Source: an uncultured Spirochaetia bacterium
Lineage (GTDB): Bacteria > Spirochaetota > Spirochaetia > SZUA-6 > Bin103
Assembly: GCA_958296075.1 (NCBI GenBank)
Contig: CATQHW010000002.1
Location: 930,001 to 994,000, forward strand
Length of the DNA: 64,000 nucleotides
Direction: 5' to 3'
In this document: piece by piece, positions 39,452-59,998 of the stretch
How positions within the stretch are numbered: position 1 is the first letter of the stretch
How the letters are laid out: each line of letters opens with the position of its first letter
Translations under genes and position numbers: made by a program
The notes under the pieces: generated by a model
What the model was told of the DNA's origin: nothing
What the model saw: the letters and a program-made list of their open reading frames with translations, nothing else
Database searches by the model: none

Positions 39452-40240
39452 ATGCGGGTACCGGATTTCCAGCGCAGCTTCCTGACCTTCACCAGCGACG
39501 ACGACCGCAAGGAGCCCCGGACCCGCTCGCACCGGGCGCCGTACCGGTTCAACGCGGCGCGCATCCAGCTCGAATGTGTCTGCACGCTGACCGCGGCCGG
39601 CGGAGCCACGCACCGCTACGTGCTCGGCGCGTCCTGCAAGAGCGAAATCGTGGGCCTGGACCGCGATCTGTGGTTGCACCCCAACGCCGACTTCTGCCCG
39701 GTGGCCAGCGAGTCGGAAATCATGATCCTGAAGAGCTGGATCACCAATCAGACCGAGGTGATGTTGGAACCGCCGTCACTCGGGCGCCAGCCCGAGCGCC
39801 AGGTCGGCCTGACCGCCGACCTGTTCAGCGACTTCGATCTCCAGGTGCGGGAGACCGACGGCGAGGTCATGGACTCGACCGAGCGCATCATCGAGGCGAC
39901 CTGCGCGCAGCGCCCCCTGGTGGCGCGGCTGCAGTACGAGGACGCCGGATACCGCGTGCGCATCGACCACCCGGTCAAGACCATGAACGTCAATCCGCGC
40001 GACGGCGTGTTTCAGACCGACACCGGTCCGATCCTGCTGCCGGACTTCACGCGTGAGCGCGATCAGGGGCTGCTGGTGTCGGCGTTCGATCTGGCGTTCG
40101 CGGCCTTCAACCGGCCGGCGTTCGCGGAGATGGTGATCCGGCGGCCGACGCCGGTCGCCGGCGGCGGCGCGGTGACCGCCGACCATTACGAGGCGACGAG
40201 GAGGATCGAGGCGATGAACAATCAGGTGCTGGCGCGATGA
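39452..40240 (+). CDS. conserved hypothetical protein paired with PhyH dioxygenase
   Basis: A 262-aa protein I do not recognise. It opens RVPDFQRSFLTFTSDDDRKE and contains CVCTLTAAGGATHRYVLGASCKSE and DFCPVASESE, a beta-rich pattern with several Cys, no signal or membrane helix. The ATG at 39452 has no ribosome site; TAGCAT lies 8 nt upstream. It overlaps the PhyH gene by ATGA, so the two products are expected to act together. Confidence 0.7.
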   Translation: MRVPDFQRSFLTFTSDDDRKEPRTRSHRAPYRFNAARIQLECVCTLTAAGGATHRYVLGASCKSEIVGLDRDLWLHPNADFCPVASESEIMILKSWITNQTEVMLEPPSLGRQPERQVGLTADLFSDFDLQVRETDGEVMDSTERIIEATCAQRPLVARLQYEDAGYRVRIDHPVKTMNVNPRDGVFQTDTGPILLPDFTRERDQGLLVSAFDLAFAAFNRPAFAEMVIRRPTPVAGGGAVTADHYEATRRIEAMNNQVLAR

Positions 40241-41067
40241 GCCGCTCGGCGATCAGGGAAGGGCAGCCGTTCGGCGCCGAGCGGACGGCGCGGCTGCTGG
40301 CCGACTTTCGCCGCGACGGTTTCTGCGTGATCGGCGGCGTACTGGACGCAGAGGAGGTGGACGCGCTCCGCGAGGCGACCGACCGCTACATGGCCGACGA
40401 AGCGGCGATCGCCGGCGGCTACGTGCAGCGCGACCACATCCTGCGTCACGCCAACGAGCTGGCCCCGATCTTCCTGGACTTGCTGGTGCGCGAGCCGATC
40501 TACGGCCTGATGGCGGCGCTGTTCGGCGACCGCATGCAGCAGTGCGGGATGAACGTGCTGCGCAGCGGCCGCGGCGTGGCGATCGAGCACTGGCACGTGG
40601 ACGACGACCTGTTCTTCCCGCTGCCCGACGACCTGCCGCGCCACGATCCGCGCATCCTGATGCCGGTCTACTGGCTCACCGTGCAGATGGCGTTGTCCGA
40701 CATCGAGCGGATCGAGCACGGCCCGACGCAGTACGTACCGGGCAGCCATTACTCGGGCCGCTGGCCGCCGGAGGACGGGACCCCGCAGTTCGAGGGGAGG
40801 GAGCCGCGGTCGATCTACTGCAAGGCCGGCGATATCTACCTGCACGACCCGCAGTGCTGGCACCGCGGCGCCCCCAACGACTCCGACCGGGTGCGCTACC
40901 TGCTGCAGTCGCAATACGGCGCGGAGTGGGGATTTCCGCGCTACAACGCCTATATCCGCCACGCCATGCCGGCGGAGCTGATGGACGGCGCCGGCGAGCG
41001 CCTGCTGCGCCTGATCGGCCCGCAGCGCCACCACCCCGAGAAGCGCTACGTGAGCGCGGACCGATGA
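40237..41067 (+). CDS. phytanoyl-CoA dioxygenase (PhyH) family protein
   Basis: A 276-aa Fe(II)/2-oxoglutarate oxygenase. Iron ligands: His and Asp in IEHWHVDDD (about residues 108-116) and distal His in CWHRGAPNDSDRVRYLLQ, whose Arg would bind 2-oxoglutarate. Starts in an ATGA overlap with the hypothetical gene. Such proteins are abundant in GC-rich symbiont and soil genomes; substrates are rarely known. Confidence 0.88.
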   Translation: MSRSAIREGQPFGAERTARLLADFRRDGFCVIGGVLDAEEVDALREATDRYMADEAAIAGGYVQRDHILRHANELAPIFLDLLVREPIYGLMAALFGDRMQQCGMNVLRSGRGVAIEHWHVDDDLFFPLPDDLPRHDPRILMPVYWLTVQMALSDIERIEHGPTQYVPGSHYSGRWPPEDGTPQFEGREPRSIYCKAGDIYLHDPQCWHRGAPNDSDRVRYLLQSQYGAEWGFPRYNAYIRHAMPAELMDGAGERLLRLIGPQRHHPEKRYVSADR

Positions 41068-41079
41068 GGTGTCATGGGC

Positions 41080-42417
41080 TCAGACGGTCGCCGGCGGGGT
41101 GGCGGACGCGATTCCCTGCTGGACCAGCAGCTTGAGGAAGTCGTCGGCGAGATCGGCCGCGGCGCCCTCGGGGAGCGCCTCCCGGAACGCGCCGGCACGC
41201 ACGCCCGCGCCGCGCAGCAGGGGCGCCAGCAGCTCCATGCAGCGGCCGTCGAACGTCCATCGGTAGCCGTTCGCCTGCAGCACCGCGGCGCCGTCGGCGC
41301 TGCGTTCCAGAGTCGCGCGCCGGGCGCCGCGCAGCCGGATCTCGTAGCGTTCCCAGTCCGGGGACTGCCACGGGTCGAGGTACGGGCCGAGGCTCGTGCG
41401 TGGCCGGTCGGACCAGGTGGCGCGCAGGTGGTCGCGGAATTGCTGTCCGGGGTCTCCTGCCAGTTCCCCGAGGATCAGCTCCCGGAGCGCCGCGTAGTGG
41501 GCGCCGCCGGAGCGGTCCGTCGGGTGCGGGAGGTCGCGGCGGAACGTCTCGTGGCGGGTGAGCCTGCCGGTGAGCCACTCCATGAAGTCGAGACCGGTGG
41601 TCGCGTGAGCGCTGCAGGTGAGGTGCAGGCTGCCGGCGCCGTCGGAGCCGTCTTCAGCCTCGGCGCGGGCGTCGTGCCACCAACCGCGCGGGAGGTAGAG
41701 GACGTCGCCGGCCCGGAGCATTCCGTTCCACACCGGCGCGGCCGGCGGCTCCGCGGGCGGTTCCGAGTCCCGCACGAGCGGAAAGCGCCGCGTTTCGCCG
41801 TAGATCTGCCAGCGCTTCGTTCCGGCCACCTGCAGGATGAACACGTCGTGGTCGTCCCAGTGGGTTGCAAAGCCGGGGGTCGCCACCCACGAAGCGTAGA
41901 GGTTGATCGTCACGTAGCCGCTCAGGGATTCCTCAAGCGCGTCGGCCACGGGACGAATCGGAGGATGGAGCTCCTGGATGCCGGGCAGGACGATGGAGGC
42001 GCCCTGGCGGAGCATCCCTTGCAGCCGCCGGTCATCGAGTTGGCTCGCGTTCTCAGGTGCGCCGCTCCTTCTCCAGCCGTGGCCGAACGGCGGCGTGGTG
42101 TAGGCGATGCTGGGGACGCTCCTGCCGTCCTGGACCAAGTCCATCCGGGCGTACCACGCGTCCGAGCACAGCAGCGCGTTGAGCTGTTCCCAGGTGCACA
42201 GCGAAGCGAAGCGGGGGCCCTCCGCCCGAAACAGGACCGGGCGCTTGTCCCGGTAGCGGGTGTCGAGGAACTCCTGCGTGGTCAGCGGCCGGATGATGCC
42301 GGCGAAGTCGGCCGGTTCGTAGCGCTCCGCGCCGGCGGGGAGCACCTCGACCGCAGCGAGGCCGGCGCCTGCGGGGGCCGCTTGCGGAACGGACACGCGC
42401 GTCCCAGGTTCACCCAC
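41080..42417 (-). CDS. JmjC/cupin-type Fe(II)/2-oxoglutarate oxygenase of the RiPP locus
   Basis: A 445-aa cupin_4/JmjC protein, similar in layout to bacterial ribosomal oxygenases (YcfD/RoxA type). Iron site: HWDDHDVFILQVAGTKRW (H-x-D, about residues 200-217) and GDVLYLPRGWWHDA (distal His, about 250). A winged-helix-like C-terminus follows (LKLLVQQGIA). Known relatives hydroxylate Arg or His in proteins, so a peptide substrate is plausible. GTG at 42417 has AGAGGA 6 nt upstream and overlaps the small gene's end by 8 bp; reading frame continues upstream only as shadow. Confidence 0.88.
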   Translation of the reverse strand: MGEPGTRVSVPQAAPAGAGLAAVEVLPAGAERYEPADFAGIIRPLTTQEFLDTRYRDKRPVLFRAEGPRFASLCTWEQLNALLCSDAWYARMDLVQDGRSVPSIAYTTPPFGHGWRRSGAPENASQLDDRRLQGMLRQGASIVLPGIQELHPPIRPVADALEESLSGYVTINLYASWVATPGFATHWDDHDVFILQVAGTKRWQIYGETRRFPLVRDSEPPAEPPAAPVWNGMLRAGDVLYLPRGWWHDARAEAEDGSDGAGSLHLTCSAHATTGLDFMEWLTGRLTRHETFRRDLPHPTDRSGGAHYAALRELILGELAGDPGQQFRDHLRATWSDRPRTSLGPYLDPWQSPDWERYEIRLRGARRATLERSADGAAVLQANGYRWTFDGRCMELLAPLLRGAGVRAGAFREALPEGAAADLADDFLKLLVQQGIASATPPATV

Positions 42418-42682
42418 CGGGTTCCTCTTTGGCGCGCGCGGCCGGAGCGCGTTCCGGCGGTTCCACCGCAGTGTCGGGTACGATTTCGATGCTGATACGC
42501 GGAACCGCGCCGCGCGAGCTACCGGCAGGCTGGATCCTGCTGAGATAGTCAGCTTCCTGCTTGAAGGCACGGCGGAAGGCGAGGCACACGACCGGCGTCC
42601 CGCCGCGCAGAAGGTTCCGTGGGTCCATATCTCTTACTGCAACGTACCGAGCCGGCGTCTTGCGAGCAACCACCCCGTTCAT
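42410..42682 (-). CDS. small basic protein between NHLP precursor and JmjC oxygenase
   Basis: A 90-aa reading frame (72 aa if begun at 42628). It contains YVAVRDMDPRNLLRGGTPVV and FRRAFKQEADYLSRI, then a charged tail EPPERAPAARAKEEPGG. No motif is recognised. It overlaps the JmjC gene and lies in the precursor-to-oxygenase transcript, so a part in maturation or recognition is possible. Ribosome sites are weak for both starts; codon use at the 5' end is less GC-rich than the neighbours. Confidence 0.5.
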   Translation of the reverse strand: MNGVVARKTPARYVAVRDMDPRNLLRGGTPVVCLAFRRAFKQEADYLSRIQPAGSSRGAVPRISIEIVPDTAVEPPERAPAARAKEEPGG

Positions 42683-42806
42683 GGTTCCCGGGCCGGTAGG
42701 GCCGGCGTCAGAAAGATGCCGGGGGAGTGGCCCTGCCTGTCGATCCCCGCTGCAGCCAGCGGACGGGAAGCGATCCCGAATCGCACCGGCTGCAGCGAAA
42801 CGCCCA

Positions 42807-43151
42807 TCAATGTATATAGGTCGGGCCGTTGATATCGTCCCAGAAGGTAATCGCCTCGTCTTGGCGAACCCAATCTCCACGGTACGGGTCCCGGCGGTAG
42901 ATCGCCCCGCCGGCCGCCTTCTGCAGCTCAGACTCGCCGAGCGCCGCGAGCGGCGGTAGCACCACGTGGCTGGTGTCCGGCACGTCCTCATGCACCTTGA
43001 TGGTGAAGCCGTCGGGAATCGCAAGCCCCAGCTCATCCTTGATCGCGGCCTTCGGGTCGGCGATCAACTGGGCGCGGAACGCCTCGTCCCTGGTCGCCTT
43101 GTCCACCAAGTGCTCGCGCAGTTCGTTGGCAGTCAGGGGTTTGTTACTCAT
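42807..43151 (-). CDS. NHLP-type RiPP precursor A (nitrile-hydratase-like leader)
   Basis: A 114-aa precursor. Leader (residues 1-80) is the nitrile hydratase alpha-like type: ELREHLVDKATRDEAFRAQL, IADPKAAIKDELGLAIPDGF and IKVHEDVPDTSHVVLPP, ending ELQKAAGG. The core after GG runs AIYRRDPYRGDWVRQDEA, then ITFWDDINGPTYIH: rich in Tyr, Trp, Asp and Arg, with no Cys. ATG has GGAGG 8 nt upstream. Heads the operon with the small protein and JmjC oxygenase. Leader nearly repeats that of precursor C. Confidence 0.9.
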   Translation of the reverse strand: MSNKPLTANELREHLVDKATRDEAFRAQLIADPKAAIKDELGLAIPDGFTIKVHEDVPDTSHVVLPPLAALGESELQKAAGGAIYRRDPYRGDWVRQDEAITFWDDINGPTYIH

Positions 43152-43186
43152 GGGTTCTACCTCCACGGCGCTTGCTTGATGAAGAA

Positions 43187-43255
43187 AGTATCGGCTACCG
43201 CCGCCGGCGTGTCAACGCGAACTCCCAGAAAGTCGCTTATCCGGTATTTCCGTGG
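43187..43255 (-). promoter_or_regulatory. NHLP promoter module A
   Basis: Minus strand: 20-bp element CCACGGAAATACCGGATAAG (43255-43236), 20 nt, TTGACA (43215-43210), 17 nt, GATACT (43192-43187). Shares 31 of 40 positions before the -35 with module C. Confidence 0.8.
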
Positions 43256-43332
43256 TAACAGGCTCCATCCCCGTGACCATAAAAGGATCAGACGATCCTC
43301 CCAACGTGTTTGCCAATCGGCATCTCGCGAGG

Positions 43333-43602
43333 TTACCAGAGCCGACCGCCGAGATACTCGACGGTCCAGCCGCCGGAGGCCATTTTCAGATCGGCTCTGG
43401 TCAGCTTGCTGTCGAGCGGCAGCACCAGATGCGCCGTGGTACTACTCTCTTCGTGTATCTTGATCGACATCGACTCTGGAATGGTGATGCGCAACTCCTG
43501 CTCGATCGTTCCCTTGGGATCGCTCCGCAGCCGCGCGCGAAACTCGGCGTCCTCGGCCGCCTTGGCGACGATCTCCGCCTGCATCTCGTGCGCCGACTTC
43601 AT
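43333..43602 (-). CDS. NHLP-type RiPP precursor B
   Basis: An 89-aa precursor of a second leader subtype: MQAEIVAKAAEDAEFRARL, SDPKGTIEQELRITIPESM, IKIHEESSTTAHLVLPLDS, ending KMASGG. The core is WTVEYLGGRLW. AAGGTGAG precedes the ATG at 43602. It stands alone between module A and the ISL3 relic; a diverged copy of the shared element lies about 190 bp upstream at 43788-43809, next to a TTGACG, but with no good -10. May be poorly expressed. Confidence 0.85.
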   Translation of the reverse strand: MKSAHEMQAEIVAKAAEDAEFRARLRSDPKGTIEQELRITIPESMSIKIHEESSTTAHLVLPLDSKLTRADLKMASGGWTVEYLGGRLW

Positions 43603-43787
43603 GCTTCTCACCTTGGATGGATCGGCAGATTGCACGGAGTACGAAAGTACCGAGCCATCCGCCTCGCCGGCTGGACCGGGCGGCGGCTGCGCGGGTTGCG
43701 CACCAGCGCGCCGCCGCGATGCCGGCGCTTGACAACCGCTTGTCGGGTGGCGATGCTGCCGTCAAGGACGTTTGCTGCCGACGAGGC

Positions 43788-44636
43788 GATTATCTTCCGG
43801 GTTTCCGCGTCTCGGTCTGGGGAGGAAGGAGCAGGCGGTTGGCAAAGATCGACATCGGCGATCTTCTCGGAGATTGGGACGGCTACGAAGTCGTGGCCGT
43901 CGCGCGGCGTAGTGGAATGGTCGAGATCGAGTTGAACCCTGTCGGCGGGCTGCCTGGGGTCTGCACCGGTTGCGACCAGGAAGTGCCCACCGTACATGGG
44001 TACGAGCGGCGCCGGGTTCGCGATCTGCCGATCCTCGATACGCCGGCCAGCCTGATACTGCGACGGCGTCGGCTGGCATGCCCGCGGTGCGGTCCGAAAC
44101 TGGAACGGTTGAGCTGGTTGGCCCGCTATGCGCGGGTAACGCAGCGGCTGGCGGACAGCGTGACGCAGATGTGCACGGTGATGACGGTCAAGCAGGTGGC
44201 GGAGTTCTACCGGTTGGGATGGGACACGGTGAGGGACCTGGACAAGCGGTTCCTGCAGCGTCGCTTCGAGCCGGTCGACCTGCACGGCGTGACCTATCTG
44301 GTGGTGGACGAGTTCGCGTTGCTCACCGGAAAGAAGTACGTCACCGTGATCACCGATGCGGTGACCAAGCGGGTGTTGTGGGTGGCCAGAGGGCACCGGC
44401 GCGAAAACATGCGGCCGTTCTTCGAGCTCCTCGGCAGCGCCGGTTGTCAGGCGATCAAGGCGGTCGCGATGGACATGAACAGCGCCTACGAGAAGGAAGT
44501 CCGGCACCACTGCCCGCAGGCCAGGGTCGTGTACAGCCTGTTCCACGCCGCGTTCAAGTACGGCGCGCGGCGCGATCAAGCGGCGGTGCCGGTGACGACG
44601 ACGCCGAAAGCCGCCCACGGAAATCCCGGATGAGTC
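43788..44636. mobile_element. ISL3-family insertion sequence, internally deleted
   Basis: About 0.85 kb against the usual 1.2-1.5 kb. Left end GATTATCTTCCGGGTTTCCGCG (43788-43809) and right end, read inward, GACTCATCCGGGATTTCCGTGG (from 44636) are imperfect inverted repeats flanking a truncated transposase. No 8-bp target duplication is visible. The right repeat is also the upstream element of NHLP promoter C, so the boundary assignment is tentative. Confidence 0.6.
43839..44633 (+). pseudogene. ISL3-family transposase, C-terminally truncated
   Basis: 264 aa where about 400 are normal. Zinc ribbon CTGCDQEVPTVHGYERRRVRDLP...ACPRCG, helix-turn-helix (MTVKQVAEFYRLGWDTVRDLDKR), first catalytic Asp in LVVDEFALLTGKKY and second in AVAMDMNSAYEKEV. 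The frame is normal to LFHAAFKYG (about 44570) and then becomes unrelated, ending inside the right repeat; the DDE Glu is missing. TTG start at 43839 has GGAGGAAGGA 8 nt upstream. Inactive. Confidence 0.85.
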
Positions 44637-44684
44637 ACTTTCTTGGGTTTGGAGTTGACATGCGGGTAAGCGGCGGCCGATACT
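44615..44684 (+). promoter_or_regulatory. NHLP promoter module C
   Basis: CCACGGAAATCCCGGATGAG (44615-44634), 20 nt, TTGACA (44655-44660), 18 nt, GATACT (44679-44684). Drives precursor C and the two genes after it; leader of about 55 nt with GAGGAG before the start. Confidence 0.8.
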
Positions 44685-44746
44685 TGCGCCAAAGACCGCC
44701 GGCCATCGAAATGTCGGGGTCATAAATTCAACCGAGGAGAAAAGTT

Positions 44747-45070
44747 ATGAGTGTCGAATCCAGGACCATCGGCGAACTTCGCGAGCATCTGGTCGACAAG
44801 GCGACCACGGACGAAACGTTCCGCGCTCAGTTGATCGCGGACCCGAAGGCCGCCATCAGGGACGAGCTGGGGCTTGCGATTCCCGACGGGTTCACCATCA
44901 ACGTGCACGAGGAGACTGTGGACGCCAGCCACTTGGTGCTGCCGCCGCACGCGGAACTCGGTCTGGCCGATCTGGAAGAGGCGGCCGGCGGAGCGGGCAA
45001 TTGGCGTTACCGAGCGGACGGGTCGCGCTACTGGCATGAGGACGACAGCTTCTGGACTTTCTGGGACTAG
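44747..45070 (+). CDS. NHLP-type RiPP precursor C
   Basis: A 107-aa precursor, close paralogue of precursor A: leader ELREHLVDKATTDETFRAQL, IADPKAAIRDELGLAIPDGF, INVHEETVDASHLVLPPHA, ending LEEAAGG. Core AGNWRYRADGSRYW then HEDDSFWTFWD. Cores A and C share a Tyr-Arg...Arg-x-x-Trp...Thr-Phe-Trp-Asp order. GAGGAG precedes the ATG by 8 nt. First gene of a three-gene unit with the 365-aa protein and the toroid protein. Confidence 0.9.
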   Translation: MSVESRTIGELREHLVDKATTDETFRAQLIADPKAAIRDELGLAIPDGFTINVHEETVDASHLVLPPHAELGLADLEEAAGGAGNWRYRADGSRYWHEDDSFWTFWD

Positions 45071-45103
45071 ACCGGCCGACTGGGAAACGGGGGCTTCCCG
45101 ATC

Positions 45104-46201
45104 GTGAGCGCGGACGCCGGCCGATCGGCCGGCGACGCGCGCGCCACCTTCGCGTCTACCCTTGATGGGTGTCGGCCCCTGTTTCCACCGGCCCTGCTCG
45201 GCTGCTCCGGCTGGGAGCGTCTCCTGGACCGGGCCCGGCGGCTGCCCCGTTCGGTAATCGACGCCCATTTCGGCTTCGAGTTCCGTCTCGGAGAGCCGAG
45301 CCCGGCCGCCGACCTCTTCGTCGTCGTACTTCCGGCATCGGAGCTGGCGTATCACTATGTCCGGGAGGGAGCTCGCGCCGAACGAGGATCGCCGGCGGCC
45401 GCTCTTGCAGCCGGACTTCAGGAACAGGCCGCGAATCCGGATTCGTACCTTGCCCGCGGCGTGGCTGGAATGGTGCTGGAGTACGATCTGGCCGAGATCG
45501 AGCCAGGTCGGCCGCCGCCGGCCCCCGGTATATTCTTCACGCCACGAGGCTCCGCGCCGGGGTCGCGGGCGGAGTTCCATGAGCACGGAGATCCTGCCGG
45601 CCTGCTTGCGGCGCTTGCCGTGACCGCCGGCTGGAGCGGTCACGAGGAGGAGATCCCGATAGTCGAGCGCATCCTGGCGGCGCTGCCGGACACGGGCTAT
45701 CTGTTCCAGGCGGGAGCGCTCCCGGGGCGCTCCCCGAAGGCGTTCCGGGCCGTTTTCAAGGGAATCGCGAAGGGGGCGGTTCCCGCCCTGCTGGAGCGGA
45801 TCGAGTGGCCCGGCCCGGCGGCCGTGGCGGCGGACGTGCTTGCCGCGATGGACGACCTGGTCGCCTATGTCGCGGTCAGCATGGACGTGACGTCGCGCGG
45901 GCTGGGTCCGCGGCTCGGTCTGGAGTTGTACCGGCCGCCGAAGTGGTTCGCGGTCGATCGCACGGGGTGGCTCCCCTTCATCGCCCGGATCGAGGAGCGG
46001 GGCTGGTGCCTTCCGGCCAAGGCCGGCGGACTGCGGAGCTGGCCCGGTACCGAACGGCTGCTCGATGACGCAGGCATGCATGTCGTTCGCCAGGGCATCA
46101 ACCACGTCAAGGTCGTCATCGACCCGCATGCCCCGACCGCGGCGAAAGCCTACGCCGGCATGGACGTCTATCCCTGCGGATCGACGCCCCGGCTGCGGTA
46201 G
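45104..46201 (+). CDS. unrecognised 365-aa protein of the RiPP locus
   Basis: I do not recognise the family. No signal peptide or membrane helix. Features: SVIDAHFGFEFRLGE near residue 50, a glycine/alanine-rich helical middle, YVAVSMDVTSRGLGPRLGLELY (about residues 263-284), and NHVKVVIDPHAPTAAKAYAGM near the end. Alternating strand-like segments and conserved Asp/Arg suggest an enzyme. GTG start 33 bp after precursor C; its stop overlaps the next gene by 1 nt. Position makes it the prime candidate for a core-modifying enzyme. Confidence 0.7.
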   Translation: MSADAGRSAGDARATFASTLDGCRPLFPPALLGCSGWERLLDRARRLPRSVIDAHFGFEFRLGEPSPAADLFVVVLPASELAYHYVREGARAERGSPAAALAAGLQEQAANPDSYLARGVAGMVLEYDLAEIEPGRPPPAPGIFFTPRGSAPGSRAEFHEHGDPAGLLAALAVTAGWSGHEEEIPIVERILAALPDTGYLFQAGALPGRSPKAFRAVFKGIAKGAVPALLERIEWPGPAAVAADVLAAMDDLVAYVAVSMDVTSRGLGPRLGLELYRPPKWFAVDRTGWLPFIARIEERGWCLPAKAGGLRSWPGTERLLDDAGMHVVRQGINHVKVVIDPHAPTAAKAYAGMDVYPCGSTPRLR

Positions 46202-47196
46202 TGTCTGACGGGCCACGCGGCGGCGTTGCCGGTGCGGCCCCGGCGCGGTTCCGGGAGGCGGTGCGCGACGCGGTCGACCGGGGCCTCGGCTTCCTCGAAG
46301 CGGCCATCCGCGCCGACGGCGCCTGGGCGTCGCGGATCTACCGCAACCTGGACCTTACGGGACCAAGCCAGGACGAACACCCGCCCTTCGTGGCCGGCCT
46401 CGGCGCGCTTACGCTGGAAGCCTGCGGCGACCCCCGGTCCCGGTCGATCCGGGACCGGTCCGGGATGTACGTCGTCCGCTCCATGCGCTATCCGGGCACG
46501 TGGCGCTACTGGCCGAGTCTCCCGCGCGATCTGGACAGCCTGAGCGTCTGCTCCCAGGCGGTCCGGTGGCACCCCTGGGTGCTGTTCGGCGCCAACCTCG
46601 GACTCCTGCCGGCCGCGCAGGACGAACGGGGAAGGTTCAGGACCTGGATCGCCCCGCCCGCCGAGTCCAATGTCGCCGACAGCGTGGTGAACGCCAACGT
46701 CGTCGGCTACCTCGCGCTGCTGGGACGGAACGAGATCGGCGAACGGGCGGCGGCGTGGCTTGCCGGTCTGATCCGGGACGGGAATGCGGCGGGGACCTCC
46801 CATTACTATCCCGATACCATCGACCTGTACGACGCCGTCGCCCGCGCCCGCGGGCGGGGCGTGCCTGCGTTCGAGGACCTGGGGACGCTGCTCGTGGACC
46901 GTATCCGCGCACGGCGCGGCACGGACGGCGGGTACGGCGACACGCTGCGCACCGCGCGCGCCCTCTCCGCGCTGCACGTGCTGGGAGCGCCGCCGGCCGG
47001 CGACGGGTTGTGGGCCGCGCTGGAGCGAATCCTGAGCCGCCAACGGCCCGACGGAAGCTGGCCGGAGCACCGCTACTGGCAGGGACCCCTGCCGCCGAAC
47101 CCGCCGACCGTGGGATTCGGCTGCGCGATGCTCGACACCGCTTCGTGCATCGAGGCCCTGGTCCGGTCCGTCCCGGTGCCGGCGCCCGGCGCGTAA
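46201..47196 (+). CDS. squalene-cyclase/prenyltransferase-like alpha/alpha-toroid protein
   Basis: A 331-aa protein with terpene-cyclase-type repeat motifs: GLGFLEAAIRADGAWASR near the start, GTDGGYGDTLRTARALSAL near 240 and ILSRQRPDGSWPEHRYWQG near 280 (QW-like DGxW turns). It is a single toroid; the DxDD acid motif of squalene-hopene cyclases is not seen. In the precursor C unit it could bind or cyclise a modified peptide, or be a terpenoid enzyme. The stop/start overlap TAGTG couples it to the previous gene. Confidence 0.75.
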   Translation: MSDGPRGGVAGAAPARFREAVRDAVDRGLGFLEAAIRADGAWASRIYRNLDLTGPSQDEHPPFVAGLGALTLEACGDPRSRSIRDRSGMYVVRSMRYPGTWRYWPSLPRDLDSLSVCSQAVRWHPWVLFGANLGLLPAAQDERGRFRTWIAPPAESNVADSVVNANVVGYLALLGRNEIGERAAAWLAGLIRDGNAAGTSHYYPDTIDLYDAVARARGRGVPAFEDLGTLLVDRIRARRGTDGGYGDTLRTARALSALHVLGAPPAGDGLWAALERILSRQRPDGSWPEHRYWQGPLPPNPPTVGFGCAMLDTASCIEALVRSVPVPAPGA

Positions 47197-47225: not shown

Positions 47226-48032
47226 TCAGCAGGCAGGTCGCGCCGGCGCCGGGCCGATCAGGCGGACGTGCGGGGCGGACGCGCCGGGGTCGCGCTCGAC
47301 CACCGCCTCCACGCCAAACACGTCGCGGAACCGCTGCGGGGTAAGCACCTCTGCAGGTGCGCCTTCGGCCACCAGCTCGCCCTCCGCCAGCAGCCCCAGC
47401 CGATCGCAATAGCGGCCGGCCAGCGACACGTCGTGGAGCGCCACCAGCACCGCCACGCCGCCGGCGGCTTCAGACCTCAAAGTCTCCATGGCCGCGAGCC
47501 GATGGCGGAGGTCGAGGCCGGCGACCGGTTCGTCGAGGAGCAGGACGCGCGCCTGTTGCGCCAGCGAGCGGGCCAGGAGCACCCGCTGCCGTTCGCCGCC
47601 GGAGATGCGGTCGAGCTGCCGGCGCTCGAACCGTTCGGTCTCGGTCCGCGCCATCGCCGCGCGTGCGATCCGCCGGTCCTCGGCGCCCTCCAGCGCGAAG
47701 CGGCTCAGGTGCGGATACCGGCCCATCAGCACCGTCTCCAGCGCGGTGAACGGGTGCGCGGCTTCGTGCTGTGGCAGATACCCGACCTGCCGCGCACGCT
47801 CCTGCGCCGGCAACGCCGTCAGCTCCGCCGGTCCCAGCCAGACCGAACCGGCGTCGGGGCGCAGCACGCCGGCCATCACCCGCAACAGGGTGCTCTTGCC
47901 GGCGCCGTTGGGGCCGACCAACCCGGTCACCCGGCCGGCGCGCGCGGCGAACGACATCGAGCGGAGTACCGGCGTCCCGGCCAGGCGCAGGGATACCGCG
48001 CGCGCCGCCAGCGGGCCGCCGCTCGGGGTCAC
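47226..48032 (-). CDS. btuD: vitamin B12 ABC transporter ATP-binding protein
   Basis: A 268-aa FecCD-type importer ATPase: Walker A GPNGAGKST, Q-loop YLPQHEAAHPF, signature ISGGERQRVLLAR, Walker B LLLDEPVAGLD, switch His ALHDVS. GTG at 48032 overlaps the btuF stop (GTGA). Cobalamin specificity rests on the riboswitch ahead of the operon. Confidence 0.9.
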   Translation of the reverse strand: MTPSGGPLAARAVSLRLAGTPVLRSMSFAARAGRVTGLVGPNGAGKSTLLRVMAGVLRPDAGSVWLGPAELTALPAQERARQVGYLPQHEAAHPFTALETVLMGRYPHLSRFALEGAEDRRIARAAMARTETERFERRQLDRISGGERQRVLLARSLAQQARVLLLDEPVAGLDLRHRLAAMETLRSEAAGGVAVLVALHDVSLAGRYCDRLGLLAEGELVAEGAPAEVLTPQRFRDVFGVEAVVERDPGASAPHVRLIGPAPARPAC

Positions 48033-49051
48033 GGCTCCACGTACGGCTCGAAATCGCCGAAGGTCACGTCGTGGAACCGGTCCGGGTACAGCAGCCGCGC
48101 GGTCACCTCGATGCCGCGCACGTTCCAGTGGGAGAGGGTCGTGTAGTAGCGCGGGTCGGCGACGATCACGCGTTCGCCGGCGATCGCTGGAACCGCGGCG
48201 ATCGCCCGATCGGCCATCAGGTCGTCGCGCAACCGCGTCCCGCCGGAGTCGGCCGGCTGCGTGATCAGGATCACGTCCGGGTTCATGGCGGCGATCGACT
48301 CCACGCTCACCGCCTGATGGCCGGAGATGCCGTCGCGGGCCGCGGCGTTGACGCCCCCGGCCGCTTCGATGATGCCGCCTTCGGTCGAGCCGCCGCCGGC
48401 CGCGCTGATAGTCTCCGCGAAGCGGGCGATCGACAGGACCGCCGGCCGCGACGGGTCGCCGGGCGGCGGCACCCGTTGAGCGACCAGCGCCAGCCGCCGC
48501 TCGATATCGGCGACCAACTCCAGGGCGCGATCCTCGGCGCCGAGCAGATAGCCGAGCAGCAGGATGTTGGGGATGTTGCCGGCCGCCGAACTCTCCAGCT
48601 CCGAGCGCACGACCGGGACGCCGGCCTCCTCGATCAGGTCGACCAGGTCCGCCGTGGTGTACCGGGAGGCCACCACCACGTCCGGCCGCATCGCCAGCAC
48701 CGCCTCGACCCCGCTCTGCACGGTCGCCATGCCGGCGACCTGATCGGCGACGTTGGAGTAGGTCGGATCGGCCGTGAACCGGCCCACGCCCGCGAACCGG
48801 CTGCGCGCGACCAGGGCCAGCAACATCTCGTCGTGGCCGAGCGAGAGGGCGACTATCCGCTGCGGGGGCGCATCCACGCGGACCCGCCCTTCCGAAGTCT
48901 CGATCTCGCGCGGCCAGCCCCGGTTCGATACGTCGACGATGCCGGGCACCGCCGGGTAGTCGACCGGCGTCTGCGCTGCCGCGCCGATCGCGCACGCCGC
49001 GAGCAGGCCGGCGCGGACCGCCGTCCGTAGCGGTTTCTTCCAGGTATCCAT
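48029..49051 (-). CDS. btuF: vitamin B12 ABC transporter substrate-binding protein
   Basis: A 340-aa class III binding protein with signal RTAVRAGLLAAC (possible lipobox LLAAC). Family phrases: RIVALSLGHDEMLLALVARSRFAGVG, MRPDVVVASRYTTADLV, MNPDVILITQPAD. The ATG at 49051 has GAGGAGG upstream. Middle gene of btuCFD. Confidence 0.88.
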   Translation of the reverse strand: MDTWKKPLRTAVRAGLLAACAIGAAAQTPVDYPAVPGIVDVSNRGWPREIETSEGRVRVDAPPQRIVALSLGHDEMLLALVARSRFAGVGRFTADPTYSNVADQVAGMATVQSGVEAVLAMRPDVVVASRYTTADLVDLIEEAGVPVVRSELESSAAGNIPNILLLGYLLGAEDRALELVADIERRLALVAQRVPPPGDPSRPAVLSIARFAETISAAGGGSTEGGIIEAAGGVNAAARDGISGHQAVSVESIAAMNPDVILITQPADSGGTRLRDDLMADRAIAAVPAIAGERVIVADPRYYTTLSHWNVRGIEVTARLLYPDRFHDVTFGDFEPYVEP

Positions 49052-49126
49052 GATTCGCCTCCTCGTGGTATGGGCTCGTTGCATCGGCTCGTGGTACGGG
49101 TGCTCCGGTCGGCTTCAGGTGTCGGC

Positions 49127-50197
49127 TTACAGCATCCCCGCGCGCGCCTTGTGACGGACCAGCAGGAACAGGAAGAACGGCGCTCCGACTACGGCGGTGA
49201 CGATGCCGACGCGCACCTCCGCCGGGGCGATGATCACGCGGGCGACCGTGTCGGCGGCGAGCAGGAACACCGCGCCGCCGAGGGCGCTCAGCGGGACCAG
49301 CACGCGGTGGTCGGCGCCGGCGATCAGGCGGAGCGCGTGCGGGACGATAAGCCCCACGAACGCGATCGTCCCTGAGAACGCCACCGCTGTGCCGGTGATC
49401 AGCGACGCGGCGAGCAGCAGGACGGTCCGGATCAGACCGACGCGCACGCCGAGCGCTCGCGCTTCCTCCTCGCCGATCATGAGCAGGTTCAGGTCGCGCG
49501 ACAGCAGCACGGCGACCGCCATGCCGGCCAGCGCAAACGGCGCCGCGAGCCGCACGTCGGTCCACCGCGACGCATCGAGTCCGCCGGCAAGCCAGAAGAT
49601 CATCTCGCGCTGCGCGCCGAACTCCTCGGTGAACAGCACGATCGCGGCGATGACGGCGGCGATGAACGCGCTCACCGCCACCCCCGCCAGCAGCAGCGCC
49701 GCCATCGAGAAGCGGCCGCCGACCGAGGCGACGGCGAACACCAGCGCCAGGGCGCCGCCGGCGCCGGCGAACGCCATGGCGGGCAGCGCCAGCGGCGACG
49801 CCGCCTGTGCGCCGACCGCGATTGCCGCCACCGCTCCCAGCGCGCCGCCGGTCGACACGCCGATGATGCCGGGGTCGGCCATCGGGTTGCGGAACAGCCC
49901 CTGCATCACGGCGCCCGCCACCCCCAAGGCGGCGCCGACGATCAGCGCAAGGGTGATACGCGACAGCCTGATCGTCTCGATGATGGCGCGCTCGGCATCG
50001 TCGGCCGCGAGGACGCGTACGCCGAACTGCTCCAGCAGGATGGCGGCGGTGTGAGAGAGCGGGATCGCGTACGGGCCGACGGCGGCGGCGGTCACGATCA
50101 GGGCCGCGGCGCAGGCGGTAAGCAGCGCGCTGCCGCACGCCAGCCGCGCGATGACCGGCGACCGCTCTATCGCGTGATCTGTCTGCTCGCCCCGCAC
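49127..50197 (-). CDS. btuC: vitamin B12 ABC transporter permease
   Basis: A 356-aa FecCD/BtuC family permease with about ten helices. Landmarks: RLSRITLALIVGAALGVAGAVMQGLFRNPMADPGIIGVSTGG, GTIAFVGLIVPHALRL and the end VGAPFFLFLLVRHKA. GTG start at 50197. First gene of the operon, directly below the cobalamin riboswitch (about 140 nt). Confidence 0.92.
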   Translation of the reverse strand: MRGEQTDHAIERSPVIARLACGSALLTACAAALIVTAAAVGPYAIPLSHTAAILLEQFGVRVLAADDAERAIIETIRLSRITLALIVGAALGVAGAVMQGLFRNPMADPGIIGVSTGGALGAVAAIAVGAQAASPLALPAMAFAGAGGALALVFAVASVGGRFSMAALLLAGVAVSAFIAAVIAAIVLFTEEFGAQREMIFWLAGGLDASRWTDVRLAAPFALAGMAVAVLLSRDLNLLMIGEEEARALGVRVGLIRTVLLLAASLITGTAVAFSGTIAFVGLIVPHALRLIAGADHRVLVPLSALGGAVFLLAADTVARVIIAPAEVRVGIVTAVVGAPFFLFLLVRHKARAGML

Positions 50198-53335: not shown

Positions 53336-53366
53336 AACATACGGCCCGTGCGCCGACCGTTGTCAA
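53336..53366 (-). promoter_or_regulatory. topA promoter, leaderless candidate
   Basis: Minus strand TTGACA (53366-53361), 19-bp spacer, TATGTT (53341-53336), 6 nt before the GTG start; no Shine-Dalgarno. It overlaps the last codon of the upstream PhyH gene. Confidence 0.5.
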
Positions 53367-54160
53367 GCCAGGGTGTCGCCGATCGCCTGCAGCGGGGTGA
53401 AGTCGCGGTTGTTCTGGAACCACGGGCGGTCGTCGTTGGTACAGGCGTTGCTGCACGCGTTGTAGATCAGGTACAGGATCGCGCGCCGCCACGGGGAGAT
53501 GTTGTTCGCCGAGCCGTGGATGAGGTTGCAGTCGACCAGCGCCACGGTGCCGGCGCCGCCGATCAGCGGCTCGATGCCGTGCTCGTCCGCCAGCCGCGCG
53601 ACGGTGGCGCGGTCCAACTCGTACAGCGAATAGCCCTTGGCGTCGCGGTGCAGCTCGATCGAGTCGATGAACCCGTGGCGGTGCGACCGCGGGATCACCA
53701 GCAGCGGCGAGCGCTCCACCGAGCAGTCGTCGACGAACACCGACGCCATGATGCAGTCGGGCCGCTCCATGCCGTCCACGCGCCGCCACGCGCTGTAGTC
53801 CTGGTGCCAGTCCCAGCGCGCCCCGGAGCCGAAGCCCTCCTTGGGGTTGAGCCGGCTCTGATGCAGGTACACCTCGTCGTCCAGCAACTGCCCGACCGGT
53901 TCCAGCAGCCGCGGCAGCAGCGACAGCCGGCGGAACGGTTCAGAGTAGAGATGCGCCCCGAACACCAGCCGCGCGCCGGACCCGTCCTGCTCGCGGATCA
54001 CCTCCGGCCCGGTCCGACTCAGGACCTCCGGGAGAGCCGCGCGCAGCGCCTGCACCTCCGCCGGCTCGAGCAGCCCCTCGAACAGCAGGTACCCGACCTC
54101 CTGGTACTGCCGGACCTGGCCTTCGCTCAGCCGCACGGGTACGTCGAATTCAAGGTACAT
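53363..54160 (-). CDS. phytanoyl-CoA dioxygenase (PhyH) family protein
   Basis: A 265-aa Fe(II)/2-oxoglutarate oxygenase. His and Asp in ARWDWHQDYSAW (about residue 122), distal His in LIHGSANNISPWRRAILY with the co-substrate Arg. The WHQDY motif and PLLVIPRSHRHG resemble ectoine/proline hydroxylase-like members, but substrate is open. Divergent from the ABC exporter, 26 bp away. Confidence 0.88.
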   Translation of the reverse strand: MYLEFDVPVRLSEGQVRQYQEVGYLLFEGLLEPAEVQALRAALPEVLSRTGPEVIREQDGSGARLVFGAHLYSEPFRRLSLLPRLLEPVGQLLDDEVYLHQSRLNPKEGFGSGARWDWHQDYSAWRRVDGMERPDCIMASVFVDDCSVERSPLLVIPRSHRHGFIDSIELHRDAKGYSLYELDRATVARLADEHGIEPLIGGAGTVALVDCNLIHGSANNISPWRRAILYLIYNACSNACTNDDRPWFQNNRDFTPLQAIGDTLA

Positions 54161-59737: not shown

Positions 59738-59998
59738 TTACCAGTTATCGACGGGGTTCCAGGAGCCACCGGCGACCGTTTGCAGATCGCTTTGGCTCAG
59801 CCGGCTGCCGGGGGGAAGAATCAGATGCGCGGTCGCGTCGCTATCTTCGTGAACTTCGATCGCCATGGACGCCGGAATGGCGACGCCCAACTCCTGGCTG
59901 ATCGCTCTCTTCGGATCGCTGAGCAGCCGCGCCCGAAAATTCGCGTCCTCGGTCGCCTTGCCGACGATCTTCGCCCGCATGTCCTGTGCCGTTTCCAT
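59738..59998 (-). CDS. NHLP-type RiPP precursor D (distant from the main locus)
   Basis: An 86-aa precursor of the same leader subtype as B: MRAKIVGKATEDANFRARLL, SDPKRAISQELGVAIPASM, IEVHEDSDATAHLILPPGS, ending TVAGG. Core SWNPVDNW, eight residues flanked by Trp. GAGGAGGAG lies about 10 nt before the ATG. It sits among sugar-acid genes with no modifying enzyme beside it, so it probably relies on enzymes of the 41-47 kb locus. Confidence 0.9.
   Translation of the reverse strand: METAQDMRAKIVGKATEDANFRARLLSDPKRAISQELGVAIPASMAIEVHEDSDATAHLILPPGSRLSQSDLQTVAGGSWNPVDNW

Follow-up and report, generated by a model that had tools for sequence, protein, structure and literature searches.

The 64,000-nt DNA stretch analysed here (the window) stems from an uncultured Spirochaetia bacterium (GenBank GCA_958296075.1, contig CATQHW010000002.1, positions 930,001 to 994,000, forward strand) and harbours a peptide biosynthesis locus at 41080-47196. 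This locus probably encodes the formation of terpenylated RiPPs (ribosomally synthesized and post-translationally modified peptides), i.e., a Trp residue of the peptide would be prenylated and the attached isoprenoid then cyclised on the peptide. All genes placed in this range by an initial annotation, which was made from the sequence alone, were recovered with the same boundaries. They are arranged in two divergent halves: precursors 1 and 2, a small protein and a JmjC-type oxygenase on the minus strand, and precursor 3, a 365-aa protein and a toroid protein on the plus strand. In agreement with that annotation, none of the standard maturases LanM, YcaO and radical SAM was seen among the locus genes. 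The genes of the locus, together with a fourth precursor encoded elsewhere in the window, are:

about 41080..42417, minus strand: JmjC_2 (PF08007) Fe(II)/2-oxoglutarate oxygenase, start GTG at 42417 or 42396 (PF08007, E=5e-25)
42410..42682, minus strand: conserved small protein of 90 aa, its gene coupled to that of the JmjC oxygenase (Binatia homologue L017:11192-11524)
42807..43151, minus strand: precursor peptide 2, 114 aa, NHLP leader type B, core AIYRRDPYRGDWVRQDEAITFWDDINGPTYIH (TIGR03793, 62.5 bits)
43333..43602, minus strand: precursor peptide 1, 89 aa, NHLP leader type A, core WTVEYLGGRLW (TIGR03793, 59.6 bits, and gene call)
44747..45070, plus strand: precursor peptide 3, 107 aa, NHLP leader type B, core AGNWRYRADGSRYWHEDDSFWTFWD (TIGR03793, 62.1 bits)
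45104..46201, plus strand: putative peptide prenyltransferase with ABBA (PT-barrel) fold, 365 aa (AlphaFold2 model, Foldseek, paralogs beside precursors)
46201..47196, plus strand: single-domain toroid resembling class II terpene cyclases, at most 331 aa, with DLD as acid motif (residues 110-112)
59738..59998, minus strand: fourth, dispersed precursor, 86 aa, NHLP leader type A, core SWNPVDNW (TIGR03793, 67.6 bits, and gene call)

From this gene set, we infer each chemical step as follows, along with the prenyl donor, the order of steps and the whole role of the JmjC enzyme: (i) the leader of an NHLP precursor would dock on the free-standing ABBA-fold prenyltransferase (45104-46201), by analogy to MppC; (ii) this enzyme would transfer an isoprenoid (C15 or C20 by guess) to the indole ring of the conserved Trp, located at the C-terminus or close to it; (iii) the class II cyclase (46201-47196) would protonate the peptide-bound isoprenyl chain via an aspartate of its DLD motif and fold the chain into rings, by analogy to NctPC and MstE; (iv) the JmjC enzyme and its coupled small protein would probably hydroxylate one peptide residue; and (v) an NHLM exporter would cut after the GG motif and export the product. 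A complete NHLM exporter is encoded in the genome, unlinked to the locus (C2:261-267 kb). Its C39 ABC1 (TIGR03796, 905 bits) and ABC2 (TIGR03797, 751 bits) components both score above their cut-offs, while the HlyD component stays below its own.

Precursors and the conserved Trp

All three locus precursors possess a leader ending in GG, and their scores exceed the cut-off of the leader model TIGR03793 (leader_NHLP; 50.9 bits), which substantiates the leader type proposed in the initial annotation. The fourth precursor lies outside the coordinates given there and has no maturase beside it. Across the genome, 11 NHLP genes exceed the cut-off, four of them in the window. In addition, one broken copy is present (L021:5304-5715; G000:C1:909330-909552), with its leader match split across two frames. 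Two leader types can be distinguished, A (METAKEMQ...IPASL) and B (...LREHLVDKAT...IPDGF). Stand-alone precursors, i.e., the one at 59738 in the window and those of loci L019, L020, L024 and L064, would need enzymes acting in trans; scattered precursors without adjoining maturase are probably served in this manner. Among the NHLP relatives of the same family, the enzymes were not encountered without precursors, a pattern that the initial annotation had considered as speaking against a RiPP locus.

The cores were compared as a set of 28 distinct sequences from this genome and from a Candidatus Binatia genome, with 20,000 within-core residue shuffles as the null expectation. They are hypervariable, yet every one of them (28/28) contains Trp. 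It is the terminal residue in 16 cores (3.3 expected) and falls among the last three residues in 23 (9.1 expected), neither count being reached in any shuffle. Asp or Asn precedes the terminal Trp in 11 of these 16 cases. The Cys-free and Trp-rich nature of the cores noticed at first sight was borne out (Trp 10.7 %, Cys 0), while the leaders contain neither Trp nor Cys.

The same terminus recurs next to prenyltransferase homologues of other lineages. Five of six Azospirillum NHLP precursors adjoining such a gene end in Trp (RKW, KGSW, IKW, KPW), and so does a Pseudanabaena Nif11 precursor near a homologue (IKW). In genomes G461, G193 and G471, the gene directly upstream of the prenyltransferase is unrelated to any known leader; its product carries Trp as the last residue in the former two and as the last but one in the third:

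L061:8059-8439: upstream Trp-tail protein of G461, 126 aa, ending SGW
L010:2558-3208: upstream Trp-tail protein of G193, 216 aa, ending ALW
L088:10258-10761: upstream Trp-tail protein of G471, 167 aa, ending NRWA

As a baseline, about 3 % of the other proteins of these loci have a terminal Trp. Judged from these distributions, the Trp conserved at the C-terminal end or close to it is most likely the target position of the modification. The upstream proteins of 126-216 aa are possibly protein substrates without NHLP or Nif11 leader.

The 365-aa protein

The initial annotation had left this protein unrecognised, which holds for its sequence: neither Pfam nor NCBIfam provides a family, and phmmer against PDB gave no significant match. 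Its structure, however, can be assigned. The AlphaFold2 model, calculated from an alignment of 15 family members (mean predicted local distance difference test score, pLDDT, 89; predicted template modelling score, pTM, 0.88), has its strands and helices ordered as (ββαα)5, forming a ten-strand barrel. All 50 of the 50 PDB matches listed by Foldseek belong to the ABBA aromatic prenyltransferases, and many of these act on indole or Trp. PriB (E=2e-6), EpzP and IptA rank highest, and the indole enzymes TleC, AmbP and DMATS are also among the matches listed. The isoprenoid synthase fold of the PalQ/ComQ type was not found in the model, which shows a PT-barrel instead. By its modelled fold, the protein is a prenyltransferase, for which the corresponding activity may be assumed.

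Four prenyltransferase genes are present in the genome, each of them (4/4) 92-132 bp away from an NHLP leader domain. Homologues are encoded in Candidatus Binatia (three copies, up to 70 % identity), in the same-family genome G398 (two copies) and in G461; more distant ones were found in G193, in G149-type genomes and on plasmids of Azospirillum, Pseudanabaena and Nostoc. The prenyltransferases of the window lineage fall into two supported clades. The one comprising the 1022-kb copy and L017:15531 is flanked only by type A precursors, and the other mostly follows type B. This suggests, for a small sample, that leader type pairs with prenyltransferase clade.

Various gene contexts were observed for the homologues. 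On the plasmid of Azospirillum sp. B510 (L079, 272-10415), Trp-ending NHLP precursors and a prenyltransferase homologue are accompanied by TfuA and YcaO homologues, a gene set which suggests prenylation plus thioamidation. The plasmid of Pseudanabaena galeata (L077, 1-8785) encodes LanM, the Nif11 precursor ending in IKW and, within one open reading frame, a prenyltransferase domain fused with a 2-oxoglutarate-Fe(II) oxygenase. In small genomes (1.5-1.8 Mb) of the class, fusion proteins combine a prenyltransferase-like domain with a C-terminal domain that is rich in Cys and SPASM-like (L062:8104-9714, L060:5144-6769, L060:9413-11149, L063:5407-7011); these loci also encode NHLM exporters, radical SAM proteins and Nif11-like peptides with GG. 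In the cluster of G398 (L058:7654-14040), two prenyltransferases and a cyclase are accompanied by two P450s, an NHLM exporter and an NHLP precursor whose very short core reads SGYY; in this case, Tyr residues may become cross-linked or prenylated.

The toroid protein and its pairing with the prenyltransferase

The terpene-cyclase-like toroid recognised in the initial annotation is confirmed as such by fold as well as profile matches. A family search yielded a weak match to SQHop_cyclase_C. With the structural model, Foldseek retrieved SHC-type single-domain enzymes (E=3e-7) as well as MstE and drimenol synthase (3e-6 to 1e-5), and a profile of four toroid sequences matched drimenol synthase at E=5.6e-13. 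D112, the second Asp of the DxD motif, aligns with the catalytic D333, the residue mutated in AsDMS D333N. Both Asp residues are invariant among the toroid homologues. Window and Binatia proteins read DLDSL, the full DxDD being confined to G398 (DLDDT), G461 and G471 (both DxDDT). On these matches of sequence and modelled fold, the toroid is homologous to class II terpene cyclases, and a cyclising activity appears plausible. A LanC-like or non-catalytic scaffold was set aside as first choice, since fold and profile matches point to class II terpene cyclases.

The prenyltransferase and cyclase genes overlap by one base, the cyclase gene reaching into the prenyltransferase stop codon. In G461 (665 aa) and G471 (668 aa), the two are fused into one open reading frame. 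Among 395 genomes of the class, the cyclase occurs in four and the prenyltransferase in ten, including all four with the cyclase; the G471 prenyltransferase was missed by the profile search and recognised by eye from the fused reading frame. Co-occurrence by chance would have a probability of about 2e-7, a figure that overstates the strength because the genomes are counted as independent. From gene order, fusion and distribution, the two proteins most likely work together.

Several observations weigh against peptide terpenylation. The profile of the 365-aa family matched no prenyltransferase in PDB (no recognisable sequence similarity to cyanobactin F enzymes, DMATS or NphB), and its fold matches reach TM-scores of only about 0.5. 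The toroid model is weak (pLDDT 66, built from four sequences), and the window toroid has DLDSL in place of DxDD(T). The cyclase is single-copy versus four prenyltransferase genes, none of the locus genes encodes a prenyl donor enzyme, and two relatives of the prenyltransferase lack a Trp core, namely in G398 (core SGYY, two P450 genes) and in Nostoc UHCC 0926.

With one cyclase for four prenyltransferases and no cyclase nearby at the three other prenyltransferase loci of the genome, many peptides may be prenylated only. Whether this applies to the present locus too, perhaps with a pyrroloindoline ring closing spontaneously in the manner of ComX, and with the toroid inactive or acting on another substrate, has to be weighed. 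Such a restriction to prenylation would agree with these gene numbers and with the degenerate motif as compared to G398, G461 and G471, but is unlikely in view of the cyclase gene overlapping the prenyltransferase stop codon and being conserved in Binatia (78 % identity), the retention of both Asp of DxD and the existence of prenyltransferase-cyclase fusions.

Considerably less probable is a role of the 365-aa protein as non-catalytic leader-binding partner or chaperone. The missing sequence match to known prenyltransferases would be compatible with it, and the fusions to SPASM-like, 2-oxoglutarate oxygenase and cyclase domains would also suit a substrate-recruiting domain. However, E59, E126, E274, K336, K348 and Y350 are invariant on the barrel strands, inside the barrel, across widely divergent members (as judged from conservation and from their place in the model), and the partner cores share a terminal Trp whatever the leader type. 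Catalysis by the 365-aa protein, followed by cyclisation of the isoprenoid, remains the preferred reading.

The JmjC oxygenase and its small partner

The initial annotation correctly identified the JmjC oxygenase. Its HxD...H iron ligands are intact in the alignment with NO66, and the homologue in the Binatia cluster is 72 % identical. The gene is single-copy in this genome and absent from G398, G461 and G193. Being kept in the Binatia cluster but missing from these three genomes, the JmjC enzyme is, judged by gene content, an add-on to the cluster. Also the 90-aa reading frame listed in the initial annotation is considered a real gene, since a homologue (110 aa, L017:11192-11524; 59 % identity over 68 aa) likewise directly precedes the JmjC gene in Binatia. 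A literature search pairing NHLP with JmjC found no publication. Going by its family, the enzyme probably hydroxylates a peptide residue as a secondary modification.

A reading in which this hydroxylation, the simplest guess of the initial annotation, characterises the locus and the remaining proteins have auxiliary roles is the least probable of the alternatives: in spite of the intact triad and the conservation together with the small partner in Binatia, the gene is missing from three related loci and occurs once in a genome with precursor-prenyltransferase pairs at four places, the cores share Trp rather than His, Arg or another residue typically targeted by ribosomal oxygenases, and the PT-barrel fold and the cyclase homology most likely place the main chemistry elsewhere.

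Horizontal transfer of the cluster

Between the window genome and Binatia, cluster proteins are highly similar (prenyltransferase 70 %, JmjC 72 %, cyclase 78 %, ABC1 exporter 84 % identity), and the cluster DNA is 73-94 % identical over matching stretches. One core, AVMGDIGRIWRVQDW, is identical in both genomes (L017:15213-15494 and L023:10128-10409), and the stretch DEAITFWDD of the precursor 2 core is found again in the Binatia precursors L017:6565 and 8587. The yardstick proteins RpoB (47 %) and LeuA (26 %) are far less similar; these two were chosen because TopA gave no match in G595. The same-family genome G398 displays the opposite relation, with 81 % identity for both RpoB and LeuA, yet just 33-57 % for the cluster proteins. 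A remnant of an ISL3 transposase precedes the precursors at the same place in Binatia L017 (74 % identity). By these comparisons, the cluster has evidently moved horizontally between distant lineages. That two very distant lineages harbour it and have one core sequence in common points to the products being under strong selection.

Relation to known systems

The enzyme combination, which the initial annotation knew from no described RiPP class, is indeed an unusual set, but its central part is not without precedent. The closest system is NctPC, reportedly the work of Hubrich et al. 2024, as cited by a review. According to the available description, NctPC consists of an MstE-like cyclase fused to an ABBA-barrel prenyltransferase that shows little similarity to cyanobactin enzymes; it prenylates Trp of a peptide and then cyclises the isoprenoid (PMC13290415). 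Compared on the basis of this description, the present locus shares the pairing of prenyltransferase and MstE-like cyclase (the G461 and G471 fusions also the domain order), and differs by separate genes, four prenyltransferase paralogs and the additional JmjC enzyme and small protein. As far as described for NctPC, a PT-barrel enzyme plus MstE-like cyclase acting on peptide Trp is thus an already reported class of chemistry.

Prenylation of a C-terminal Trp in NHLP precursors is likewise known, with an enzyme of different fold: in the PalQ/PalX system of Paenibacillus alvei, the conserved C-terminal Trp of an NHLP-type precursor (core DNVRRFFW) is prenylated (PMC10853753). In contrast to the present locus, PalQ has a trans-isoprenyl diphosphate synthase fold, not a PT barrel, and neither a cyclase nor a JmjC gene is present. 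The lanthipeptide prenyltransferase MppC has the ABBA fold and geranylates Trp, requiring a long structured Nif11 leader that docks on the enzyme (PMC12715784). The likeness in fold, Trp target and leader dependence is drawn from this description; MppC differs in modifying the lanthionine macrocycle after LanM, and no cyclase is involved. MstE and the bacterial drimenol synthases share the single-domain or C-terminal toroid with an acid Asp, and the isoprenyl chain that MstE cyclises is one bound beforehand to an aromatic. Their known substrates are, however, small molecules, and the window copy has DLDS versus DxDD. In ComX/ComQ of Bacillus, too, the peptide varies in sequence while a prenylated Trp close to its C-terminus is invariant; this system differs in enzyme fold, leader and a known signalling role.

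Novel aspects of the present case are a prenyltransferase that is separate from its cyclase, occurs in several copies and is associated with NHLP leaders; a JmjC enzyme and a small protein as additional components; an extensive set of precursors; the dissemination across distantly related lineages; and a terminal-Trp rule that holds for leaders of unrelated type. A possible overlap with genome mining in the original NctPC study would lower this novelty. The analysis proposes a function for a family that neither Pfam nor NCBIfam covers by a model. It also widens the scope of peptide terpenylation, a modification for which very few enzymes are known to date, to separately encoded enzymes, NHLP leaders, a large natural core library and a further oxygenase. 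As the Trp position can be read from the sequence and the enzymes are encoded by separate genes, prenylation, cyclisation and hydroxylation are open to separate study in E. coli, with about 30 natural substrates for assessing specificity.

One may also speculate, though this is rather doubtful, that the 365-aa family represents a leader-independent mark-and-modify system for C-terminal Trp, which would also serve the unrelated Trp-tail proteins of 126-216 aa (G461, G193; NRWA in G471), and that in the window lineage this kit, supplemented with the JmjC hydroxylase, generates a combinatorial library of peptides which distant lineages exchange. Bacteria would then put cyclised terpenes on the tail Trp of whole proteins, as a counterpart of CaaX prenylation.

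Further features of the locus

The space between the divergent halves and the regions upstream of precursors 2 and 3 contain the following elements:

43839..44633, plus strand: ISL3-family transposase remnant, C-terminally truncated (NF033550, 179 bits, profile positions 11-220 of 370)
44655..44684, plus strand: promoter-like site TTGACA-18-GATACT, upstream of precursor 3
43187..43215, minus strand: promoter-like site TTGACA-17-GATACT, upstream of precursor 2

The transposase remnant, which went unmentioned in the initial annotation, sits between the two halves. The upstream regions of precursors 2 and 3 are inverted copies with one promoter-like site each, within inverted repeats I1, I2 and I6; two TTGACA-N17/18-GATACT sites were observed versus 0.4 expected. 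Codon-position composition is coding-like for the precursor, JmjC, prenyltransferase and cyclase genes, and weak for the 90-aa reading frame.

Not counted as cluster members were the PhyH gene (40237-41067) with the 262-aa gene preceding it, and the iron ABC transporter at 47226-50197, since they are not present in the Binatia or G398 clusters. PhyH is one of two phytanoyl-CoA-dioxygenase-like proteins encoded in the window, adjoining the cluster; the other is located at 53363-54160.

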